This document shows positions 3,209 through 64,000 of a stretch of 64,000 nucleotides of DNA, one piece after another. Source of the DNA: Siphonodentalium dalli (lineage: Eukaryota; Mollusca; Scaphopoda; Gadilida; Siphonodentaliidae); the NCBI GenBank assembly GCA_032622095.1, contig CP136068.1, positions 159,607,465 to 159,671,464 on the forward strand, in the 5' to 3' direction. Each line of letters starts with the position of its first letter. Position 1 is the first letter of the stretch. The position numbers and the translations under genes were made by a program. Below the pieces are notes generated by a model. The model was not told the origin of the DNA. It saw only the letters and a program-made list of their open reading frames with translations, and made no database searches.

Positions 3209-3354
3209 CATCCAATCATTGAAGATTTCATAAAGTATATAACATTGTTATGCACATCAAAATGAACAGAATGATATTATCAATACATGTTATAGAAGAG
3301 GAATATAAATTAATATGAGGAGCAATACGTATGTACACGTATGTACAATAATGG

Positions 3355-3625
3355 GTTTGGTGACAGTGATGACCATGATGATGATGACGATGATGGTGAT
3401 GCTGCTGATGACGACTATGATGGTACGATGATGCGGTGATGTTGAAAATGGTGACATAGATGACGATGCTGATGATGGTGTTGGTGATGATGATGGTTAC
3501 GCTGATGACCATGATAATGTTGATGGTGATGATGATGATGATGATGTTGAAGATGATGGAGAAGATGGTGATATTGTTGTTTATGATGATGATGATGATG
3601 ACGCTGATGATTATGATTATGGTGA
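3355..3625. repeat. TGATGA microsatellite in the 3' region of element 1
   Basis: A long imperfect (GAT)n/(ATC)n tract, interrupted by GTTGATGGTG-type variants. It lies between the stop codon of the retrotransposon remnant (3732) and its tail (3208), so it belongs to the 3' untranslated part or expanded there later. It produces His-rich and Met-rich spurious frames on both strands. Confidence 0.85.
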
Positions 3626-3731
3626 TGGTCGTGATAGTGATGTTGTAGACCACACATTACATGTAATACGCGTACATCATGCACACATTTTGTTTACAGA
3701 AGTATGCACGCATGATTCTAATAGGGTATGA

Positions 3732-5838
3732 TCACGGCGGTTTCAAGCGCCGCGTTAACTGATTTTGAACATTGGAATGGGTTGTGTTCATTCCGTTCGC
3801 TTGCGAGAGAGCGTTGTACACCAACCACAGTTGTGCAGTAATTCCGACTATGTAGTTAGTAAAACAATCAATATCATCAATAACATGCTGTATGCGATCA
3901 CTGACGTGCGTGAGATGAAGGGATATAATGCCATCGTCATTTAATTCATCAACGGCAATGAAACAAAGTATACCATACCGGTCGATTAAGCCAACAAACA
4001 TGTTGTTTCGTATCAGTGTCAACTCTTTACAGTCAATTAGGATGTGTTTGACTTTGTCGACATACATGCGTTCACAGTTAGGGTATGGCCCTTCATCTCG
4101 GCAATTGGTTGCATTGATATCCAGTGCTGTCGTGATTTAGCATCGTTTGTTTTGTGGAAATTTTCGGCACAAACGCCAGAGTTTGGACATACTGAGCGTA
4201 TGATGAATTCTCAGAAAGCGGGTGAAAGCTATGTCTGACGTCACTCGCATGTTCCATTCTGCCTCATTGACAATTTGTATGTTAGTTTTTACACGAGATT
4301 TCCATATCTGTTTTGATGGAAAGAGACCAGAACATATATACTCATCGACGATATCCATAATGTTATATTTCTCGACAATGGCAACAACATCGCAAATAAA
4401 CGAGCTGTTTGTTGCTGTTGAGTGAACAAAGTGGTGAAGTCTACATTCAAAAATAGCTTTGCACGATATAGGTGCTAAGCGACAGTGAGATCCAAACAAC
4501 GAAAGTTTTCGGGCTTCTATACTTGATTCAAGCGGGCAGGTTCAAGCATGCTTAGCACTGTATCAGTTCTGCAAGCAGTCGGTATACCCTGTATACGCTT
4601 CAAACAAAACCGGTGCATACGTTATATTTTAATCCTGTTTGTCGCAGAAGTGTCAGAGAGAAATTCAGAACCGTAGAGGCCACACGACAATACGATAGAT
4701 TTGTAAATGACCATAGAGCTTTGGTGTGTTATACCGCCTGCATGTATACCAGCATTGGTGAGCATCAAATAGGTAGAACGCAATTTTGAGCATATGCTTT
4801 CGGTGAGTATATTTTGAAAATTTGTTTTATGCAAAGGAATTCCAAGATGCGTTATTGCGTCCGTTTCTAAAATTGGACGGTCGTTAATTAATCAAGTTCG
4901 TGGAGAATGGTAGACTCTGGGCTTCACGTTGAAAACAATTACTTTAGATTTATTTTCATTGTATAAAAAACGCCACTTTCTGCTATAATTGCTGCATATG
5001 TCACAAAGCATTTGTAAGCCAAGAGACGAGAGCGCGAGCAACGTCATGTCATATGCCTGGGTTGGAGAACAACAGTTGATCCCATGCAATCTTAGACCAA
5101 AATTCGACAATTCAAGCTCTTTTAGTAGATCATCTATATACATAGCATCGAATATCGGCGATAAAGTTACTCCTTGTCTGGTACCTTGACTAATTGTTAT
5201 TACCCGAGAACTGCGATTTTCATATCGTACTCTACATGAGACTCCACGGAGAAATTGACTGAATATTTACAAAATTGTCCCATTTGCTCCACGTTCTTGT
5301 AGATTAAACACAAGACCGTTAACCCAGACAGTATCAAACGCGTTGTGAGCGTCAAGAAATCATGAAAAGAGGCGAGAATTATTTTCTAACGCGTATGAAA
5401 TACTTTCCTGGATTATATAAGAGGACATCAAACAGCTTATATTTTTCTGAAAGCCATGATGCAGAGCATTTGTTACGATGAGAGTTGGAACATTTCGTTC
5501 AATACGGTTCAGAAGAGCTCTTTCAAAGAGTTTATAGAACACAGGTAGTAGAGTTATGGCCCTGTAACTGTCGAATTTTGATTTAGGCTTGCCACCCCCT
5601 TGTATAATGAAGCAATGATCCCAAGCTTTGCTTGGGGTGGAATATGTGAATAATCGAGCATTAACGTTATAAGTTTAGCAATATGAGCATGCAGCTGGGT
5701 AACACCATATATAAGATGTTCGTAACATAACATGTCAGATCCAGCTGCCTTACCCTTTTTCACTGACTTCAGAACTGAAGTAACTTCTTCCATTGACACT
5801 GTGTATGTAAGAATATTATCTAGAGCACCATATACCGG
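3732..5838 (-). pseudogene. Non-LTR retrotransposon element 1: reverse transcriptase and C-terminal region, broken
   Basis: On the minus strand this is the larger half of a jockey/CR1-like second ORF. The pieces run in order. At about 5,790-5,720 is the linker with MEEVTSVLKSVKKGKAAGSD. At 5,540-5,360 are the fingers with FERALLNRI and HHGFQKNISC. At about 5,345 is a palm motif, AHNAFDTVW. At about 5,200-5,170 is QGTRQGVTLSP, followed by YIDDLLKELELSNFG at 5,140. At about 5,060 the usual catalytic ADDM motif reads AYDM, which would inactivate it. A C-terminal part with KHILIDCKELTLIRNNMF ends in a stop at 3732. Several frameshifts and stops separate the pieces. The protein would copy element RNA into DNA at a nicked target, but this copy cannot. 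Its 5' part continues at 15,852-16,560 across an inserted 10-kb block. Assignment as a non-LTR RT is firm; the clade is not. Confidence 0.9.
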
Positions 5839-16779: not shown

Positions 16780-19700
16780 TGATCTGTGAAGTGGTCTGCT
16801 ATGCCATAAATTAATAAAATCACGCGCGCGCTTCGCCGCCACTCTCCAATCTTCTTCTTCGTCTGTGGGGTGCTACGTGTATACACAATATTGCAACTCG
16901 CATGAATAAAGGGTATAAGAGTTCTGAATAAATGCGTTACTTGTAAGAATTTGATTAAGTTTTGAGGCTGGGACCCCATCAATTAATGAGTGAAAAACTA
17001 CCCACTCTGACAAGTTGTTCCTATCTTTAACAGTTCTGGGTATGAAACTGATTTGTAGGTGTCTGGATCTGCTCTGTGTCTGATGAAATGTTTCGAATGC
17101 ATTTTACTTGCAAACCTTTCTGGTAGTTGAAGATGATTTACTGGAATATTTGCCGCACCAGTCAGACCCTTAATGAATAAACATAGGCGCAATATTTTCT
17201 CCTCTCCTACATCGTCTGAAGTTTTAGAGATTCATTTGGTCATAGAATTAGGTGAATAGTCATAATTTTGCACAATAAATCTGCTGCATCGAGTCTGGAC
17301 TTTCAACAGCTTATCTGTTAATGTGATAGTATGATCCCAAATAGAAGAAGAGTATTCCAGAAGAGGTCGGATGAGGCCAGTGTGGGCTTGAAGTCTCGAC
17401 TCAGTTGGGCACATCCTTAAATTTCTGTTAAGAAAACCGATGGTTCTGTTATAATTTTTTGCGTATATAGTCCACGTGCATATCCTTCAGGTGTATAGAT
17501 GATTAGAATGGGTTTCTCAATGCGATACAAGTGCACGATGTTGCATTTTACCTGTTGGAACCGCATTCCCCATTTCCTTGCCCATGCTCCGAGATGGTCG
17601 TTGTCACGTTGTCACTCCACACAGTCACTTTTGGACTTTATTTGACGGTAACAAACAAAATCATCTGCGAAGTGTATAATATCGAATGAAATTCCTTGTA
17701 CTGCATGTATATCATTAATATACGCTGGGAATAACAAGGGTCACAGTAATTGACCTCAGAGACTCCAGACACCACACGAGAACAGGAAGACTTACTGCCT
17801 TTCACAAAAACGCACTGATAACATAGGAATGAGTCGACCCGTCGTGTAATGTTGGGGTGAATACCACAGTTATGTAGTTTCGCTTTCAATAGTTCATGGG
17901 GCACTGTATCGAAAGCTTTTTCGAAGTCCAGAATGAAGGTGTCCCGTAGGAAAGCCCAATCGTTGATGACGTGAGCAAGTTGGTTATCACAACTGTGGCT
18001 TTTACGAAAAGCATGTTGTTTATCAGGGATGATCCTCTTCTCATACAAGTGATTCACGATGTTTGAAGACACAATATGGTATAAAAGTTTGTAGTATATT
18101 ATGCAGGTAAGTGAAACCGGACGATAATTCACCGGTTTCCCCCGGTCATCTTTCTTGGAGAAAGGACATATATCAGCCGATTTGCAAACTTCTGGCACAG
18201 TGCCAGATTTGAGATATTGATCTAATATAAAATAATGTCAACATAGGTTACTTGGCAGCTTAGTTCATTCAATACTTTGTGGTGTAGTTCATCTGGACCC
18301 TTAGCCGTGTGGCAGTTTAGTCATAGAAGACGTTTCTGCACACCATTCGAGTTTACCTCTATCTTTTCCATCAGTGGAACATCTGGTTTGGACAATGGGA
18401 CACTGTTGCACTGCGTGTGAGTGTAAATTGTTTCCATTTTTAAGAAGCCGAGAACTGTGCATTTTTTGGCACTGGCATGAGTTTTATTACGCCTCCTTAT
18501 GAGCCGACGAATACTATATGTTACTCATGTTAGCGAAGTCCTTCCTCTTAACATCTGGCTTGGAATGTTTCTCAATCTGAGTAACAATTAGCTTGTGAAA
18601 GACTGACCAATTTCCCCCCACATACCCTGTGTTGACCAGATTAACGAAGTCATTATCCGAGAAATGTTGAACTTACTTCCTCATTTGTTCATAATCTCCT
18701 TTATTATACAACCTTATAGTTCTGGTTGGTTTCATTTTCCTACACTAACGTGTGCAGATTGAACAACTGACAATTTCATGATCACTGAGTTTGTCCATAG
18801 CAATTATTTCCGAAATAGAGTCAGGAGTTGAAGAAATGATAATAGCAATCGTGTTGCGTCCTCTGGTATGAAACTTGACTAGTTGTTCGAGAGTGTGGTA
18901 ATCAATAATGTCCAAAAACAATTGACCCTCGCAAGGTGATAGAATGACTTTGTCCAGGGATGACCAGGAGATGTTAGGGTAGTAAAAGTCACCAAAGATA
19001 TGAATAGACGGTTGTGAGCTGTCTCTGTGCATTTCACATATAGCTTCCAGTTGGGTACTTTCGAGCTGTTAGGTTCCCGATACCAACTTGAAAAGAAGTG
19101 AGTGTGTCCATCACATTTTAGTTTTGCCCCAACTGATTCCGAATCGTTTAAAGGCACGGGAGGCCTTAGTTGTCGAACATATTCACATTTATTCCAATTA
19201 CCGTAAACAGAAAAACATTAAAACGCATACAGTTTCGTTCATATATACCATGACAATCGCGTAAACAGCATGCTATCATAAAGACCTACTATATTTTGCC
19301 TAATAAAGAGCCTGATTATGTTACATAAGACAGCACAGTGTTACTGGCTAATCACACACAAATGATATAAACGCTCTTTATTAGTTACATATCAGGAATT
19401 CAGCAACAAAGAACGCTCTTTATGTTTACCATCATAATATAAACAAACACCAGGAAAGTAACTGTTTATGCTTTTGTTTACATAACAATGGTCGAACATA
19501 TGACCATAACATACTGTTTATGCGATATTTCTTATCTGTATACGGAACAAGTCTGTCTACATTTTAATATTCTTTTTGTTTGTGGCGGTTATTGACCGGT
19601 GGAAATATTTTCACAGCATACCCACCTTTAAGAGTGTTGTTGCTTGTGTTTGATCAAGGCAACAACTCTCGATCAGTAGCATGTCTCCTCCGCCATGGAT

Positions 19701-53599: not shown

Positions 53600-55186
53600 T
53601 ACATCGTAATCCATTATGTATTATCAGCTTGTCACCGTGTCTGTCGCGTCGGATGTATTAACAGCTAGTTACTGTGTGGTGTGTTATCAGATAATCGCCG
53701 TGTGGTAAGTTTATCTGCTAGTTACCGCATGGTGTGTTATCAACAAGTCGCCATGGCCATCATGTCGGATGCATTATCACCTATTCCCCGAGTGGTGTAT
53801 TATCAGCTAGTTTACGTGGTCGTTGTGTCGGATGTATTATCCGCAAGTTACTGTGTGGTGTATTAATGGCTAGTCCACGTGTGGTGTATTGACAGCTAGT
53901 CCCCGCGTCCATCGTGTCGGGTGTATTATCAGCTAGTCACCGTGTGGTGTGTTACCAGCTACTCGGCATGGACATCGTGTCAAGCGTATCATCAGCTAGT
54001 TGATGGGTGCTGTATTATCAGCTAGTCACCGTATGGTGTGTTACCAGCGTAACACACCACACGGTGACTAGCTGATAATGCATGGTCATCGTGTCGAGCG
54101 TATCATCAGCTATTTTATGGGTGGTGTATTATCGGCGTGTCACCGTGTGTTCCATTATCAGCTGTTTGCCATGGCCATCTTGCCTGATGTATTATCAGCT
54201 AGTCGCCGTATGGTGTGTTATCAGCTAGTCGCCGTGTGGTGTTTTTTCAGAGATTCACCACGTGGTGTATTATCAGTTAGTTTACGTGGTCGTTATGTCG
54301 GATGTATTATCAGCTAGTCGTTGTGTGGTGTATTAATGGCTAGTTCCCGTGTGGTGTATTGATGGCTAGTACACGTGTGGTGTATTAATAGCTAGTCCCG
54401 TGGTCATCGTGTCGGATGTATTATCAGCTAGTCATCGTGCGTTGTGTTACCAGCTACTCGTCATGGTTATCGTGTCGAGTGTATCATCAGCTATTTGATG
54501 GGTGGTGTATTATCAGCTAGTCACCGTGTGTTCCATTATGAACTATTCACCAAGGCCATCCTGTCCTATTTATTATCAGCTAGTCGCCGTATGGTGTGTT
54601 TTCAGCTAGTCGCCGTGTGGTGTGTTATTAGAGAGTCACCACGCGGTGTGGCCGTTGTGTCGGATGTATTATCAGCTAGTCGTTGTGTGGTGTATTAGTA
54701 GCCAGTCACGATGGGGTGTATTAATAGCTAGTCACCGTGTGGTGTGGCTAGTTACCGTATCAATAATGTCGGATGTATTATCAGCTAGTAGTTATGTGCT
54801 GTATGGTTAGACAGTTGTCACGATCATCGTGTTGGATGTATTATTAGCTAGACGCCATGGCCGTATTGTCATTGTTTGCGTCATTGATGTACGTCATTTA
54901 TGAGCGAGTCACCATGCCCATCTTGTCGGATGCATTATCAACTTGTCACCATGTGATGTATCTTCCGCTAGTCACCGTGTGATGTATCTTTAGCTAGTCA
55001 CCGTGTGATGTATCTTTAGCTAGTCACCGTGTGATGTATCTTTAGCTAGTCACCGTGTGATGTATCTTCCGCTAGTCACCGTGTGATGTATCTTCAGCTA
55101 GTCACCGTGTGATGTATCTTTAGCTAGTCACCGTGTGATGTATCTTCAGCTGGACATCGTGCGATGAATCTTTAGCTAGTCACCGT
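53600..55186. repeat. 26-bp satellite ending inside the GPCR stop-codon region
   Basis: About 60 units read AGCTAGTCACCGTGTGGTGT plus ATTATC or variants. Some longer units insert GTCATCGTGTCGGATGTATT. The right end (54,950-55,150) is homogeneous, with AGCTAGTCACCGTGTGATGT plus ATCTTT. The last partial unit, AGCTAGTCACCGTGACCATC at 55,173-55,192, is the reverse complement of the receptor's final codons and stop. A short inverted segment at 54,040-54,075 makes a local palindrome. Confidence 0.92.
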
Positions 55187-56099
55187 GACCATCGTATCGT
55201 CGTTGTCAACGGCGTTTCTTATTCCAAAAAGGCTCCGCACGGCGCGCTTGAAATTTCGGTTTCTCGAAGCAAATATGAAAGGGCAGATGAGACAGTTTCC
55301 CAAGAAAAGGCAATAAAATAGTTGATCTAGAACGATCTGAACGGTCGGATTTGCCAGGTTCTGCACGTTTGTAATAGACTTGAACATGTGTGTCGGGATC
55401 CAACAAATGCACGTACAGAATATAAGCATAAAAATTGTCACCACTCGTTTCATCTCTGACTTCAGTTTATTCGCTTTGTCGAGCGTGCCTACACTTTTCT
55501 GTTGTGCCATGATCAATTTAGCCTGCATTCGTGCTATTACAATGACGTATACGTGGAACAGGAGAGCACCAAGCGTCATAATGATCATTGCAATGTGGTT
55601 AGATAGTTTTTGTCCAAGGGACGGAATTTTTCCGCAGTTGTGCAATATATTCCAGTTTGTCGCCCAATGGTAGCAGACTGGTATGATCCAAGTACAACAT
55701 GTTCCGATGAGAGCAGCCGACATGTATGAAACAAGATGCCTCGTGTCCAGCTTCACGTGGTATTCTGGGTACTTAATGCACATAAATCTTTCGAGGGACA
55801 TTCCGAGATTCAACGCGGCGGCTAAATGAGTGGTGCCGTACTGCACAGTAGCGACAGTGATGCACGCATATTTCGACGTGAACGGCAAACTCGGAATGAA
55901 GAGATACACGGCATAGCTTGGAGTTTGAAGAGCTATCAGAAGGTCAACAGCCGATAGACATATCAACATCTTGTCATGGAATCGGCGAAGGTAGCTCGCC
56001 CTGTAGAACGCCGCGATGATGACGATGTTTGGAATTGTGCTAAAGAAGGCGACCGTCACCATTATATATCCCATGGTCTGCATCAGCCACCAGTAATAC
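55172..56099 (-). CDS. Class A (rhodopsin-like) GPCR, exon 2 (transmembrane exon)
   Basis: With exon 1 this gives a 349-residue receptor. Residue 41 is split by the intron. TM1 (about 52-73) holds PN with Asn65. TM2 has SAVDLL with Asp93. Cys120 at TM3 and Cys196 in the second extracellular loop can form the conserved disulfide. TM3 ends in ERF (144-146), a DRY variant. Trp178 marks TM4. TM6 has CWIP (273-276). TM7 ends CPFIF (313-317) in place of NPxxY, with Asn309 just before. RNRNFKRAVRSLFG is helix 8. These motifs make class A certain. I cannot name a ligand; it resembles the divergent orphan and peptide-type receptors expanded in marine invertebrates. The acceptor TTAATTGCAG at 56,100 sets the exon start; no in-frame ATG upstream of it is needed. 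The stop lies at 55,172-55,174, within the edge of the 26-bp satellite. The frame is intact over the whole exon, so the gene is probably functional. Confidence 0.93.
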
Positions 56100-58248
56100 C
56101 TGCAATTAAGACACAATATTGTCAGAAAACAACTTGATTAACATAAAGAGAAAAAGAGAAACAGCGAATCCAATATGTCTTTGCCGACGATATGCGTGCC
56201 AGATATCGATGTACAGTCTTTCTAAACTGCCGAATCTCGGACGTGGATATGGCCAACCAAAATGTCTTCAACCTATTGGTCATTATCGCATGATTGGGTT
56301 TACGTATCAGATAATTCAGAATCGTACAGTAAAGTAAATCAGTGCCGTAGACTGTCATATGATGCGAACGAATAATAAGAGCGCATGTACAATCGTATAT
56401 CAGCTTGGTATGTTGTTGAAATGCCCCAAAGCTTAATGTGTGAGAACGAAACGCGCGGCATTCCAACGAATGACCCATAATGGTTGCATCACGAACATAT
56501 TTCCATCGCTATGTGATAGTAAAAAAAATATATCTGGGGTAAGTATAGTGACATTACTCGTTATTGATTTTATCGCAGCCGGCATTGCGCTAATTTAAAA
56601 CTGAGCGAACATAGTACGACTATGAATTAAAAACAAGAGGATTATGTTGATTAGTTACATACATTTCGAAACTTCGGACACCGAATAGGTAATTACGCCT
56701 ATACATGTAGGCCTATATTTACATTCGGTTAACCAATATAAACAAATCAAAACCGTATTCCCCGTATTCACCACCCTGGAATGACACCGTGACCATACAG
56801 ACAGCCAACCAGCAACCAAGTGTTGATTTTTCTGAAGTCATCTGCATTCGCGGTTGTGGTTTTCTGGTTTCGAGTTAATTTCATTGATGTCCAGTCCATC
56901 ACTATTTCAATATCAGAACAATTATTTGGAGCATATAACCACCGCAAGAAAATGATGATGCAATTATGATCTACACGATGTAAATGCGCTATGATCGTGT
57001 TTAGTATACACATGTGTCTTCAGAAAACGACTAAGAACTGTCATCAGATACACTAGTTTTACGAAAATATTGTTGTCAAAACTGAGCGAAAAAGAGTACT
57101 GCGCGAATTTAAATACGTGTAAGTTAGATGGAACAGAATACAGCTTCTGTCACTGGAATATGCTCGTTTGGTAATTATTGTTCATGAACCGGGTTAGAAA
57201 ACGGCTATTTTTAGAACTGAGTAACCAAACTGTTGGGTTCTATGTTGGTATTACGTGGAAACAAAGTTTGCTATTTGTTTTTCTTAGAGTGTGTTGTCAC
57301 TATATAATGTGTCATGAACATATTGTTGGCAACACTTAATGAAAGGTTTTTTTTCAAAAGGAGATTCAAAGAAAGGTTGTTGTTGTTGTTGTTGAAAGTT
57401 ATGCCTGTAGTTAACTCTCATGGCGCCAGCGTCGAGTTTATCTCGTAGTCCAAAGTCATGCCGTTCACGCCGGTGACAAGATATTTTCACTCTATTCCTT
57501 TCCTTCATTTTGAAATAATAATACCGTTATGTTCATCACCTGTCCATGTATTACACGCATTATACAGGTACCCCGTTTCAATGCGTGTGACAATTAATAC
57601 CCTGATGAGCCGGACTCTTGACACTATGGCTAGATACTCTGTTAGTGTGTTAGCAAATTAATTAACTAATTGACTAGGTTGCAACTGGTTTAGTGACATA
57701 TATTAACATACCTTATTTACATTATTTAAATTTTGTACTAAAGTTTACAGGATCACTTATATCAGAAACAATCATATAGTGAACATGATTCTGGTAAATA
57801 TATAACGGTTACGAAGTGCTTTGGATCAATTATCAATTATAGAAATATTGAAACACATACTTGTACTCAATGTACTAGTACGTTTATGCCAGACCAGAGC
57901 GTCAACCAATACGACTGAGGTGTCGGTATTGACATAAAATTAGAATGCTAGGTATACAAGTACCCATTCATGCACGTTCATATTATAGTTGTGTGTTGGC
58001 ATTGTTAAAAACGGCGATCGAGCAACTTACTTCAACTGCATGTACTATTCCATTACCTATGAAAACAACAAGTACGTTCACGGTGAACTTAGAACGCATC
58101 ATACATTAGCCAGATGATGGCTCAAAACTAGTAGCCGATTGATGCTATAATAATATAACGTTATGACGTCGCTCGGGTGGGGACTGGTCCATTAGCACCG
58201 TAATTCGTCGGCGGCTGTACGATGAATGGGTTAATAAACATGTCTTAC
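56100..58248 (-). other. GPCR intron (2,149 bp)
   Basis: Donor AA|GTAAGA at 58,248 and acceptor TTGCAG|G at 56,100, both canonical. Joining them gives an AAG codon (phase 2) and keeps the frame into the tryptophan-rich start of TM1. The intron holds unrecognised sequence and a short GTT microsatellite at 57,376. I saw no further exon. The frame at 56,768-57,013 contains a CTGTATGGTCACGGTGTCAT phrase resembling the receptor's last codons, probably by chance. Confidence 0.75.
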
Positions 58249-58370
58249 TTCCGTAGTTCCGTTAACGAACTGTCTGGAGATGGAGTTGTTATTGCTTCCC
58301 AAATCGTGGTGTTATAATAAGCATCAACTGAATCAGTAGTAAGCGACAGCGTGTCTAGTGTCGATGCCAT
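58249..58370 (-). CDS. Class A GPCR, exon 1 (start codon and extracellular N-terminus)
   Basis: ATG at 58,370 opens 40 codons plus two bases ending at the GTAAGA donor: MASTLDTLSLTTDSV, then DAYYNTTIWEAITTP and onward. It is Ser/Thr-rich, carries one N-glycosylation sequon (Asn20-Thr-Thr), has no signal peptide, and joins exon 2 in frame. All this is typical of a short class A receptor N-terminus. It is too short to be found as an isolated open frame; I located it by reading for an ATG and a phase-2 donor upstream of exon 2. The first 17 or so codons and the 5' flank align with the unit of the satellite at 63.0-64.0 kb. The start codon reads ATT in most satellite units, so this unit is the one with a long ATG-opened frame. 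The alternative is that another first exon lies farther upstream, outside the window. Confidence 0.78.
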
Positions 58371-59379
58371 CTCGTTATCTATCCTAAAATGATAATAATA
58401 TATGATGTGATAAATCGGATTGGTCTCTTTGTGACTGCGAACAAGTGAGTTTGATCTGGTTTTAGGGAGGGAGTAAAGTTGGATATGTCAAATTGGACAC
58501 CCCGTCAATCCCACAATAGGGACCCTCTGGTCACGCCCCTGAACTAATATGACCACACGCTAGCGTAATTAACGAACCACAGCTAAAACGCATGCATAAG
58601 CTAGGATATATCTGTGTCTTTTTAATCCTAAACATAACTTCAAAGACGCGTATTCCCATCAAATAAGATTAACTTAGGCCTTATATCGTGGTGTGATTAT
58701 GTTATATAACACTCCATACACACACAAGGGTTCATCGACAGAGTGGGTTCAATAGCAATTGCGTGCATAAATTAGGTGAACCATATCATACATCAAGGCA
58801 TGTGAGAAATCAGAGATCACAATGCAAACAGACTACGAACTCACCGACTCAGACTTAAAACCTAAATAAAAAACTTTTAAAAGCCATTACTTTTGAAAAA
58901 ACTATTATAGGTTATAAACCGCCAACATAAAACTGAAAGTATTCAAAAGTCAAGACTGTTGTTGTTGTCTAGAGGGTGTATTTTACTGAAATTAACTATT
59001 ATACCATTGACGCTGCATGTGTGCGCAATCCTGGTGAGATGGAACTCTACTAAGAAGCTTGTCGATTTCATCATGTTCATTTTAACGAAACTCTCAAGGG
59101 CAACGTCATCATGTAGCTTTCACCATCGACCGAATTTGCGATAACCTGAATGTATCTTATGCTTGTTCATAAGTATGCGTTTCTTGTCGATTCATGAACA
59201 TATAAGGATATCTGAGGATTATCAGTATGCACGGTAATAATATAATAATTTAAACGCGATATAATAACGTTTGCCTGCATCACGAATTTCGATTTCGATT
59301 CCAGTATTGTCCCCAGCCCAGCCAGAGTGATTGAGCTTTTCCCATTGCACGCGACATTTATATTTTAGGCCACTCCGTT
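58371..59379. other. Upstream region of the GPCR; promoter not resolved
   Basis: The first 80 bp (58,371-58,450) align with the satellite unit (TCTATCCTAAA, then AATAATATATG, GTGATG-like, and TTTGTGACTG). No clear TATA or initiator can be asserted. Farther right nothing is recognised. Confidence 0.4.
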
Positions 59380-59655
59380 GCAAATATTTGACAGTCCATA
59401 ATGTTATAATTATGTTCTCTATAAAATGTAAACCGCGGCTACGAATGAACTTTACTATGCATAATTCCGATAGTAACTTCAATTTCAGATTACGACACTA
59501 CAGTAACTGCTTTATACACACCGATCTACTGTGCGACAAACGCGCTCGCAAAAATTCAAAACAGCAGTGTTGTATTAGATAATAATTGGTGACTTCATAA
59601 AATCAGATTATAGTCTATATACGACCAAAGCGTCCGGCCATTGTTCGTTATAATA
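59380..59655 (-). repeat. Repeat family X, inverted copy
   Basis: GTTGCAAATATTTGACAGTC at 59,389, TGAACTTTACTATGCATAAT near 59,446, CACCGATCTACTGTGCGACA at 59,518 and ATATACGACCAAAGCGTCCG at 59,617 are the reverse complement of 30,290-30,594, diverged by scattered substitutions. Confidence 0.85.
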
Positions 59656-59699
59656 AAAATATATGGTGTGATGGACCGGATATGTGACTTTGCGACTTA

Positions 59700-59960
59700 C
59701 ATCAGTACCACGTGGTAGAGTGTCTCATCCCGATGTAAACGGGTTATCTATTTTAAAACAATAATACTATATGGTGTGATGAACAGGATATGAATATGTG
59801 CGACTGAGTCAGTACCCTGTGATATAATGACTCATGCTGATGTAATCTCGTTATCCATCCTAAAACAATATCAACATATGACGTACTGTGCATGACTGGA
59901 CTATGTGCAACTGAATCAGTATCTGTGGTAGTGCAGCACATCACCGAACAAATACGCACA
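59700..59960. repeat. Two isolated, diverged units of the exon 1-related satellite
   Basis: Units around 59,730 and 59,838 share GATGTAATCTCGTTATCCAT plus CCTAAAACAATA and CAACTGAATCAGTA with both the GPCR exon 1 region and the array at 63 kb. They lie between the gene and the main array, as expected for a spreading tandem family later broken by insertions. Confidence 0.8.
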
Positions 59961-60164
59961 TAATCGACCTATAATGTGAATCAGGTACATATTGTGATTA
60001 TTTAATGTCTTTAATGTCTTTAACACATAACACATGAGTACATATAACACATAGATAGTACATTACATAAATATGAGATGTCAATTAAACAGAGAAACAG
60101 GAAATACACATATATAAATGTAGTGTGTATAACACATACAAAGAAGAACCTAGAAATCAGCAGT

Positions 60165-62100
60165 ATATATAATACTAGAAGGTGACCCGACTTCGTCCGG
60201 GCTTTTACCTTGAATTGACCATTGTGAAGGTCAAGGTCAGGTGGGGTCAAACACCAACACCCCAAAAATTGTGGACATCGGCCCAGCGGATACCGGGAAA
60301 TCGGCCCAACGGATACCGAGATACCCTATGCATCAAATTTCGTCCGTAAAAATCCGCCAGTTTAACCCGATTTGATTTCCACTCAAGTATATACACGCGT
60401 CTCATATACACACGCTCATTAATTATCAAGTTTCAACGTAAAGATAAATTACCATCGGTGCCCGAGATATCGCCAAGACGTCTGAAACAGTCAAATGCAT
60501 CGGCCGGTTAAGCGTTAACGTGATCTAAAGTTATGACCTCTAACGACGTCATAGAAGTTACGCATTATTTTTATCCTGATGGAAGATAGTACCACTTCTT
60601 CTTGATAATTGAGGCAGATAACTAAAACGGATACATACGCATTATATATCGTTGGAAAGAGGAAACACGAAAGATTATCACAGTGTCATTATTATGACTG
60701 GCATTTTATTATTCGCGCTGTTTCGAATCGATTTGTAAGCACCGAACTCAAATGAAAGTCCCGTAACACAGCGTAAAAACAGATTTGACCTCGGCACGTG
60801 AAAAGTTGACCTCGGATCTAAAAATTAATATGCCTATGCCACTTCCCGACCGATAGTATCCTCACATACGAAGTTTTATCGAAATCGGCTAGGCCGTTTT
60901 CGAGTCCATCGCGATCACACACACACACAGACACACACACACAGATCTTCCAAAATATATAATAGATAAATGGTGACCCGACTTCGTCCGGGCTATTAAA
61001 AAACCAAATTTCAAGTCGATAGCTCCACCCGTTTCCGAGATCTGGTCTGCGCATGCGCGAAGCTGGCGTCGCAGGGCTCGGCGACCCGATAAAATTCGTA
61101 TCCGGGGCAAGATACATTCACATACCAAATTTCAAGTCGATAGCTCCACCCGAGATATATAGCCCAATGTCATTTGCGGATACCTCGGCCGGTGTTGAGT
61201 TAACGCGACATCGGCCGGTTAAGAGTTAACGCGATCACGTCACGATCTGTTGATGGCGTAATATATTTACGCAATGTTTTTCGATGAGCGAAGCATGGTC
61301 CTGCGTTCTTCCCGATAATTAAGGTAGAAACTTTAAACGTACACAGACGTGTGATACATCATTGGAAAGATGAAGCGCCACAGATTCTAACCGTGCAAAT
61401 TATATGACTGGCAATATATTATTCGCGCTATATCGAATCGATTTGTGAGCACCGAACTGAAATATATTAGCGCAAAACGGCGTAAAAACAGATTTGACCT
61501 CGGCACGTGAAAAGTTGAGCTCGGATCTGAAAATTAATAGGCCTATGCCACTTCCCGACAGAAAATACCCCCACATACCAAGTTTCATCGAAATCGGGTC
61601 GGCCGTTATCGAGTCCATCGCGAACACACACACAGACAGACACACACACACACAGATCTTCCAAAATATATAATAGACTAGCCGATGAGCCCGACGTTGT
61701 CCGGGCTATTCAAACCCCAAATTTCAAGTCGATAGCTCTACCCAGCCCGACTTTCCAAATTTCAAGTCAATAGCTCCACCCGTTTCCGAGATCTGGTCTG
61801 CGCATGCGCGAAGCTGGCGTCGCACTGGCTCGGCGACCCGATAAAATTCGTATCCGGGGCAAGATACATTCACATAGCAAATTTCAAGTCGATAGCTCCA
61901 CCCGTTTGCGAGATCTCGTCTGCGCATGCGCGAAGCGGGCGCCGCACGGGCTCGCAAATACGACGACGTCCACCGCCTGGTCAAACTACACACACGTACC
62001 AAGTTTCGTCCCGATCGGTCGAGAATCGTAGATTTGTATAAATGACAAACAAACAGACAGACATACAGACATACAGAGGTCTTCAAAATATATATGAGAT
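60165..62100 (-). repeat. TGTCTG-headed composite repeat, minus orientation, three adjoining copies
   Basis: Three copies (60,175-60,965, 60,966-61,675 and 61,676-62,095), each starting near ACCCGACTTCGTCCGGGC or CCCGACGTTGTCCGGGC and ending in a CACACA or CAGACA run before TCTTCCAAAATATATA or TCTTCAAAATATATATGA. They are the reverse complement of the block at 297-1745, including the GATCTGGTCTGCGCATGCGC and AAATTTCAAGTCGATAGCTC phrases. The open frames within are products of the repeat. Confidence 0.88.
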
Positions 62101-62989
62101 AAATGGTTGACCCCCGCTGCGCTCTGTGACCAAATCATCCGGTTGCGGCACCTGTGAAGTGGTGTCGTTTTTCACGAGTGAGATGGATATATCTCATTAC
62201 CCGCGGTGTGATGTCATTATCGAATATTCCGACCAGAGTGTTATATAATTGAGTGTCCGGTAATAAGTTAATCGCGGGCGATATGCCCCGTAGATAATAA
62301 AATAATTACACAATATTGGAATTCTGCATTACTCAAAACCAAATCCTATATAGTTGGAAATTGTATTAGACCAAATCCTATATAGTTGGATATTTTATGG
62401 TTTCACACACCCCCAGTTGGAACCCCCTAGCAACGCCCCTTAGAGCACCGTTCTGAAGAATCCGCCGGCTGACTAGCTGACAGCCTTGGGCAATTTGAGA
62501 ACTTTGGGTTAAATAAAGATGGAGATCAAAATGGTCATCTTTGCCTCAAAGAGGTGGTTTCTACTGGAAACAAAGCACAATATCATCGCAGTAGCACAAT
62601 GATTATGTTCCTAGGACTCCTTTGTATTATTTCAACCGAGTTTGTGATGGTGGTATTTCTGTGCACCCCGTAAATTACACGTAAAGCGTTCGTCCGAGAA
62701 CAGGGGGCAGTACAGTACGAAGTGCTGATTCTGAAATAAGCAGATAATGGACTCTCACCTGTTATTTCGATTTATGGCGCGCAACACAAAATGTTAAAGA
62801 GCACACACCTGAAAAGTCGTGAGTTGGCTTATTTGTGCCATTGTCCGCACATAATTCGCTTAAAATCGCATCGATAATGTGACTAAAATGTTCTCATTTT
62901 CAGCACATAATATACAAACTGAGATAACTTTAAGCAGGTTATCTACCTGAAGCATGCTCTATTATAAGCATATAGTGTGCTGGTTTTCG
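62101..62989. other. No gene seen
   Basis: AAACCAAATCCTATATAGTT recurs twice at about 62,340 and 62,372. Otherwise unrecognised intergenic sequence. Confidence 0.4.
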
Positions 62990-64000
62990 GGAGAACATGC
63001 TTGGTAGAGTGTCTCATGCTGATGTAATATCGTTGTCCATCCTAAAACAATAATAATATGGTGTGATATATATGGTTTGACTATGTGTGACTGACCCGCT
63101 ACCCGACGACAGAGGGACTCATGCCGATGTAATCTCGTTATATATCCTAAACTAATATAAATAATAATACATGTATATGGTGTGATGTATATGGTTTGAC
63201 TATGTGTGACTGACTCGGTACCCGACGACAGAGGTACTCATGCCGATGTAATCTCGTTATCTATCCTAAACTAATATAAATAATAATACATGTATATGGT
63301 GTGATGTATATGGTTTGACTATGTGTGACTGACTCGGTACCCGACGACAGAGGTACTCATGCCGATGTAATCTCGTTATCTATCCTAAACTAATATAAAT
63401 AATAATAATACATGTATATGGTGTGATGTATATGGTTTGAATATGTGTGACTGACTCGGCTCCCGACGACAACGGGACTCATGCCTATGTAATCTCGTTA
63501 TCTATCCTAAACTAATATAAATAATAATAATACATGTATATGGTGTGATGTATATGGTTTGACTCTGTGTGACTGACTCGGTACCCGACGACAGAGGTAC
63601 TCATGCCGATGTAATCTCGTTATCTATCCTAAACTAATATAAATAATAATAATACATGTATATGGTGTGATGTATATGGTTTGACTATGTGTGACTGACT
63701 CGGTACCCGACGACAGAGGTACTCATGCCGATGTAATCTCGTTATCTATCCTAAACTAATATAAATAATAATACATGTATATGGTGTGATGTATATGGTT
63801 TGACTATGTGTGACTGACTCGGCTCCCGACGACAACGGGACTCATGCCTATGTAATCTCGTTATCTATCCTAAACTAATATAAATAATAATACATGTATA
63901 TGGTGTGATGTATATGGTTTGACTATGTGTGACTGACTCGGCTCCCGACGACAGAGGGACTCATGCCGATGTCATCTCGTTATCTATCCTAAACTAATAC
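62990..64000. repeat. Satellite of about 120-bp units related to GPCR exon 1
   Basis: At least eight units (starts near 63,011, 63,119, 63,237, 63,355, 63,477, 63,599, 63,719, 63,840 and 63,958), each with CTCATGCCGATGTAATCTCG, TTATCTATCCTAAACTAATA, ATGTATATGGTGTGATGTAT and GTGTGACTGACTCGG. Units differ by a few bases, e.g. GGTACCCGACGACAGAGGTA versus GGCTCCCGACGACAACGGGA, and the variants alternate in blocks. The array runs off the right edge of the window. Confidence 0.93.

Follow-up and report, generated by a model that had tools for sequence, protein, structure and literature searches.

A worn satellite unit overlaps, and may have become, the start of a predicted receptor gene in the scaphopod Siphonodentalium dalli

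A predicted class A receptor gene of the scaphopod Siphonodentalium dalli appears to begin within a unit of a tandem satellite. The window, i.e. the whole stretch of DNA analysed, comprises 64,000 bp of contig CP136068.1 (assembly GCA_032622095.1, positions 159,607,465 to 159,671,464), and the gene lies on its minus strand. The homology between the region of the putative first coding exon and the satellite unit is real and far beyond chance. That the receptor's first coding exon took its beginning from a worn satellite monomer is, in our estimate, an even matter, judged from a predicted exon and an unrooted tree. The original observation, made in an earlier note on this DNA, stands, and it is extended here by an overlap of the 3' end of the gene with a second satellite, with a unit of 26 bp. 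The features on which the argument depends are the following.

58249-58370, minus strand: putative first coding exon (exon 1), 40 codons plus two bases, ATG at 58370-58368, donor GAA/GTAAGA
58331-58437, plus strand: one short-form satellite unit, covering the presumed 5' flank or 5' untranslated region (UTR), the start codon and the first 13 codons (E = 7.5e-12 and 2.1e-16, see below)
58369-58388, plus strand: 20-bp core ATCTCGTTATCTATCCTAAA, exact in exon 1 and in seven array units
55172-56099, minus strand: exon 2, seven-transmembrane core (class A) and stop codon, Pfam 7tm_1, E = 9.4e-17
59650-59913, plus strand (array orientation): isolated worn units, one partial and two full; possibly followed by a further, very worn partial unit up to about 59945
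63000-63093, plus strand: edge unit of the array, old short form
63094-64000, plus strand: homogeneous core of the array, 119-122-bp units, running off the window

A profile made only from the seven units of the 63-64 kb array, with none from the exon region, matched the exon-1 region at 58344-58437 with 40.6 bits (nhmmer, E = 7.5e-12). The same profile also found the isolated units at 59713-59806 (E = 8.1e-13) and 59810-59913 (E = 3.8e-13), and its best match outside 58.3-64 kb had E = 0.022. Dinucleotide shuffles of 58321-58440 (n = 2000) reached 10.0 bits at best, thus the alignment of exon 1 and its 5' flank with the array unit and the isolated units, which the earlier note had proposed, is clearly above the level of shuffled sequence. 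Two further profiles, one of the 11 non-exon copies (match at 58334-58437, E = 2.1e-16) and one of the three old copies alone (E = 4.6e-15), recognised the region as well; their rows had been aligned jointly with the exon copy, hence they are less independent. With an earlier profile, cut at another phase of the repeat, the exon-1 region appeared as two adjoining half matches (E = 5.7e-4 and 2.6e-3), as expected where one unit is present.

The match extends into the coding side. In register, identity was 70% in the presumed 5' UTR block and 89% in the core, and in block 58331-58368, with the final base of the ATG included, mean identity was 55% vs. 26% after shuffling, none of 20000 shuffles being as good. 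These in-register shuffles involved no realignment. In the realigned control, 1000 chimeras with a shuffled coding side scored 26.9 bits on average and 34.5 bits at most, whereas the real sequence scored 40.7 bits and was not equalled once, which means that the coding side is part of the match and contributes some 14 bits to it. Towards the 5' flank the match has a sharp end at 58437, at a unit boundary, with nothing matching beyond. The other end is not sharp: the next 20 bases had an identity of 0.475 vs. 0.335 in shuffled sequence, and 467 of 10000 shuffles were as good. We regard 13 codons within the unit as secure, and an extent of up to about 20 codons as conceivable. The earlier note had the unit cover the start codon and about 17 codons; the start codon and 13 codons are borne out, 17 being a possible figure only. 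Similarly, the 20/20 identity of the core applies to exon 1 and the seven array units, which are all eight places with the exact core, and does not extend to the isolated units. The exact core is absent from the viral and prokaryote genome collections. A reading of this stretch as a conserved core or a factor-binding element was dropped, iso2 (one of the isolated copies) not being conserved there.

At the site of the exon-1 ATG the 12 comparable copies read ATT (nine), TTT (one) or ATG (two: exon 1 and array unit 63936), as the earlier note had said of most units; these counts do not include iso1 and iso4, two partial units that are very worn. Stated for the 11 comparable copies other than exon 1, ATG is missing in 10, and an in-frame TGA at codon 5 is present in all 11, where exon 1 has CTA. 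The exon-1 start also has a G at +4 (AACGAGATGG). The simplest story would have the exon copy acquire both the ATG and the open frame. Since the tree has no root, the mirror story, in which one early copy lost both the ATG and the open frame, could also be told. The array unit at 63936-64000, which is nested in the array, reads ATG at the receptor start site and then runs into the in-frame TGA.

Within the window the copies are confined to the neighbourhood of the gene. A search of the window put 13 places above the inclusion threshold, all at 58.33-64.0 kb and in one orientation, and no unit above it was found in the other 58 kb. The array consists of 7.9 head-to-tail copies of 119 bp with 95% matches (63056-63999), and the units of its core were 89-100% alike in the comparisons made. 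A 12-15-bp insertion is carried by all seven full units of the array core and is missing from the exon copy, iso2, iso3 and the edge unit, whose common short form has about 107 bp. Being of this short form, the exon copy is not derived from the 119-122-bp array core; the core would be a later expansion, with the exon copy in an older layer. Changes against the majority of the other lineages, counted at 105 sites, numbered 21 in the exon copy, 15 in iso2, 17 in iso3, 17 in the edge unit and 12 in the array, one array unit standing for the array and iso1 and iso4 being left out of the tree and the counts. A search of 56-64 kb for RNA families gave nothing at the gathering threshold, nor did the window yield a tRNA, thus nothing points to a tRNA-derived element.

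The receptor itself is recognised by the open frame 55172-56137, which matches Pfam 7tm_1 (E = 9.4e-17, 61.8 bits vs. a gathering score of 30.5) over positions 2-260 of the 260 of the profile, i.e. over the whole domain. From its sequence it was identified as a class A receptor and as the sole intact cellular gene recognised within the window. The closest solved chains are somatostatin and opioid receptors (best 60 of 82 matches, E = 6.2e-8 at best): the predicted protein resembles this type of class A receptor in the 7tm_1 match and the CWxP motif, but the match is only a remote one. Judging by eye, CWxP is present and CPFIF stands at what we take to be the NPxxY position. No second copy of the receptor was detected in the window, the next tblastn match of the whole protein having E = 1.1. 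Searches for relatives of exon 2 in the viral and prokaryote genome collections gave 13 and 2 pattern matches, none of which was confirmed, as expected for an animal sequence. A structure prediction of exon 2 alone, made without an alignment, had a mean pLDDT (predicted local distance difference test) of 44.6 and was set aside.

The matches to 7tm_1 and to the solved chains suggest that exon 2 starts at about the outer end of the first transmembrane segment (TM1), so that any N-terminal tail would need an upstream exon. Before YYWWLMQTMG of exon 2 there is, by eye and without a score, an acceptor- and branch-point-like sequence, TTCTGAC...TTAATTGCAG/G. Exon 1 ends at 58249 and its 40 codons and two bases translate as MASTLDTLSLTTDSVDAYYNTTIWEAITTPSPDSSLTELR, the peptide starting with MASTLDTLSLTTD. 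With the predicted splice, 122 + 928 bases join in frame into a protein of 349 residues with no internal stops, and we infer that exon 1 would be both transcribed and translated. Its peptide is acidic and Thr/Ser-rich, with one glycosylation sequon and one Lys or Arg. A survey of both strands of the whole window, in all phases, found 34 ATG-to-donor open reading frames of at least 38 codons with a donor of at least 2.5 bits (here and below donor scores are approximate), and exon 1 was the only one of them to combine at most one Lys or Arg in 38 residues with a sequon, in the manner of a receptor N-tail. This criterion was set after exon 1 had been seen, hence the 1 in 34 is descriptive, though supportive. 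On the minus strand at 58384-58400, just upstream of the ATG, there is also an acceptor-like TATTATTATCATTTTAG/G, and by eye the array units have similar sequence. Given this acceptor-like sequence, the coding exon could be an inner exon behind a 5' UTR exon.

The earlier note had left two directions open, amplification of the promoter and first exon into a satellite, or recruitment of a satellite unit by the receptor. Both the homology and its extension over the start codon and first codons hold, and the data, though the tree is unrooted, lean towards the second direction because the exon copy has the old short form, shows no less divergence than the non-coding copies and alone among the comparable copies lacks the in-frame TGA. 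The succession of events could have been as follows. An old local tandem repeat with a unit of about 107 bp would have lain beside the gene, and most of it would have decayed to isolated units at 58.33, 59.65-59.91 and 63.0 kb, while one part would later have expanded into the 119-122-bp array core, a history of the array that we infer. The gene-proximal relic unit, 58331-58437, would have become the beginning of the first coding exon, point changes having produced the ATG from ATT (with G at +4) and abolished the in-frame TGA. The start codon would now come from this unit, together with the adjacent upstream sequence and no fewer than 13 residues of the extracellular N-tail.

A number of observations weigh against this succession. 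The coding side of the unit, in a free search on its own, scored -0.0 bits and was not significant. The exon-1 donor has 2.6 bits and lacks the usual G at -1; no donor among the candidates reached 3 bits, and it was a subsequent lowering of the threshold that admitted exon 1. Within 7.9 kb upstream of exon 2 there are eight phase-2 ATG-to-donor candidates of at least 12 codons, exon 1 included, and its donor is the second best among them, the best having 2.8 bits after 23 codons; another of the seven competitors, at 57013-56772, has 80 codons, a sequon and a donor of 1.7 bits. The differences of exon 1 from the other copies are distributed over the codon positions as 4/11, 2/11 and 4/9, without bias, and so give no sign of coding constraint on the first codons. 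A non-coding first exon would also suit the exon-2 acceptor, and translation may start at MQTMG in exon 2. The Met of LMQTMG, beside TM1, is the next one in the joined protein, so a receptor deprived of the exon-1 ATG would have to begin at this Met or in an unrecognised exon. It is conceivable, therefore, that the relic unit is real and its overlap with the gene prediction fortuitous, exon 1 being unused and translation starting at MQTMG or in another upstream exon. We consider this rather unlikely, as a start at MQTMG would leave practically no N-tail, and the receptor-like peptide of exon 1 was unique among the 34 candidates, albeit by a criterion chosen post hoc.

Other points bear on the direction of change. 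The earlier note had called for an alignment of exon 1 with the units and for a tree; in the tree that was built the exon copy has the longest branch (0.25), the deep supports are 60-62% and there is no root, and a midpoint placed by hand from the branch lengths falls at the base of the exon branch. The polarity of the change is thus unproven, which leaves room for a promoter and first-exon segment of the gene having been copied and amplified into the isolated units and the array. Minisatellites can arise from a unique seed sequence, and such an origin would suit the location of all 13 places within 5.7 kb 5' of the gene, in one orientation, as well as the position of the midpoint. Against it, the exon copy evolves no more slowly than its supposed non-coding offspring, which speaks against a constrained gene as the source, and the TGA in 11/11 and the missing ATG in 10/11 of the other copies would require their descent from one already broken copy. 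We find this direction quite improbable. Still less credible, and in our view very improbable, is an origin of both the exon copy and the array units from a dispersed mobile element that contained the repeat internally and delivered the unit in place of a local array. Single units and short runs do occur apart from the array, and element-like carriers have been proposed for the dispersal of the TCAST satellite of Tribolium castaneum, according to the available text of PMC3411249. But no unit above the inclusion threshold was found in the other 58 kb, and inspection by eye revealed neither common flanks nor target duplications at three places, the runs starting and stopping at different unit phases.

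The 3' end of the gene overlaps the second satellite:

55162-55187, minus strand: first unit of the 26-bp satellite, 24/26 identity to the unit consensus, holding the last four codons of the receptor and its stop codon
53614-55187, minus strand: 26-bp satellite adjoining the 3' end of the gene, homogeneous at about 54950-55187 and more diverged farther out

The stop codon, 55174-55172, lies inside the unit 55187-55162, and the predicted protein ends in VTVTS. At a threshold of at least 18/26 the unit occurs at 37 places (36 on the minus strand, one on the plus strand), all within 53.6-55.19 kb, the rest of the window having none. On inspection by eye each of the three frames of the unit contains a stop, and a frame entering the unit is thus bound to end in it. 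The sole AATAAA/ATTAAA in the 2.2 kb downstream of the stop is at 54574 on the minus strand, inside the 26-bp satellite, and the 3' UTR would thus run through the satellite. By a naive count, one overlap of gene and repeat is unremarkable, as about one base in eight of the window is in tandem repeats, and two would be roughly a one-in-sixty coincidence. Repeats may have supplied both ends of the receptor protein. A more elaborate version, which we think unlikely, is that the receptor core is a duplicated or moved exon placed between two unrelated satellites, the 107-bp unit having given it the start codon, the beginning of the N-tail and the upstream sequence, and the 26-bp unit the last residues and the stop codon; the ends of the protein could then vary with repeat turnover.

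The window has 38% G+C, and tandem repeats occupy 12.7% of it (19 arrays of more than 100 bp, after merging by hand). The block at 60180-62110, between the isolated units and the array, is in pieces 80-97% alike to a 124-bp tandem array at 314-1224, opposite to it in orientation and also repeated within itself. A degenerate trinucleotide stretch at 3228-3656 (3367-3627 by Tandem Repeats Finder) gives a long low-complexity frame, which is probably non-coding. Six pieces of retroelement fragments were searched; RVT_1 was found in two of them (in one below the gathering score) and Exo_endo_phos_2 in one:

4895-5266 and 17641-18237, minus strand: broken retroelement pieces with RVT_1
18748-19068, minus strand: broken retroelement piece with an endonuclease match

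Exons derived from transposable elements are well documented. Exonised repeats such as Alu and other elements (PMC4524691, available text) resemble the present case in having repeat sequence within a coding exon, and differ from it in their source, which here is a tandem repeat and not a transposable element, and in that our exon is a predicted one. The TCAST families of Tribolium castaneum come closer, with single satellite units in and around genes: in the accessible part of PMC5844308, dispersed TCAST elements are reported to overlap exons in nine cases and to lie in introns in 1416 and between genes in 957, and PMC3411249 describes, as far as its text is available, TCAST-like elements beside or within introns of about 100 genes. 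The term 'start codon' is absent from the text of PMC5844308 as available, whereas here one unit spans the predicted start codon and a second satellite spans the stop codon. The recruitment of flanking non-coding sequence to complete reading frames is reviewed in PMC3449122; judging by the part of that review at hand, the partial gene duplicates fog-2, Hun and the first exon of AFPIII share with our receptor the completion of open reading frame ends by local non-coding sequence, but in our case we know of no parental copy of the receptor, and it is satellite that would have been recruited. Among the titles and abstract openings returned by our searches of an open-access library there was no description of a start codon within a satellite monomer, which supports its absence from print weakly. 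Should our preferred reading, recruitment of a worn satellite monomer into the first coding exon, be true, the ends of proteins can be both created and cut by the turnover of satellites next to genes, and the graded series of worn units at this locus would let the steps be ordered.

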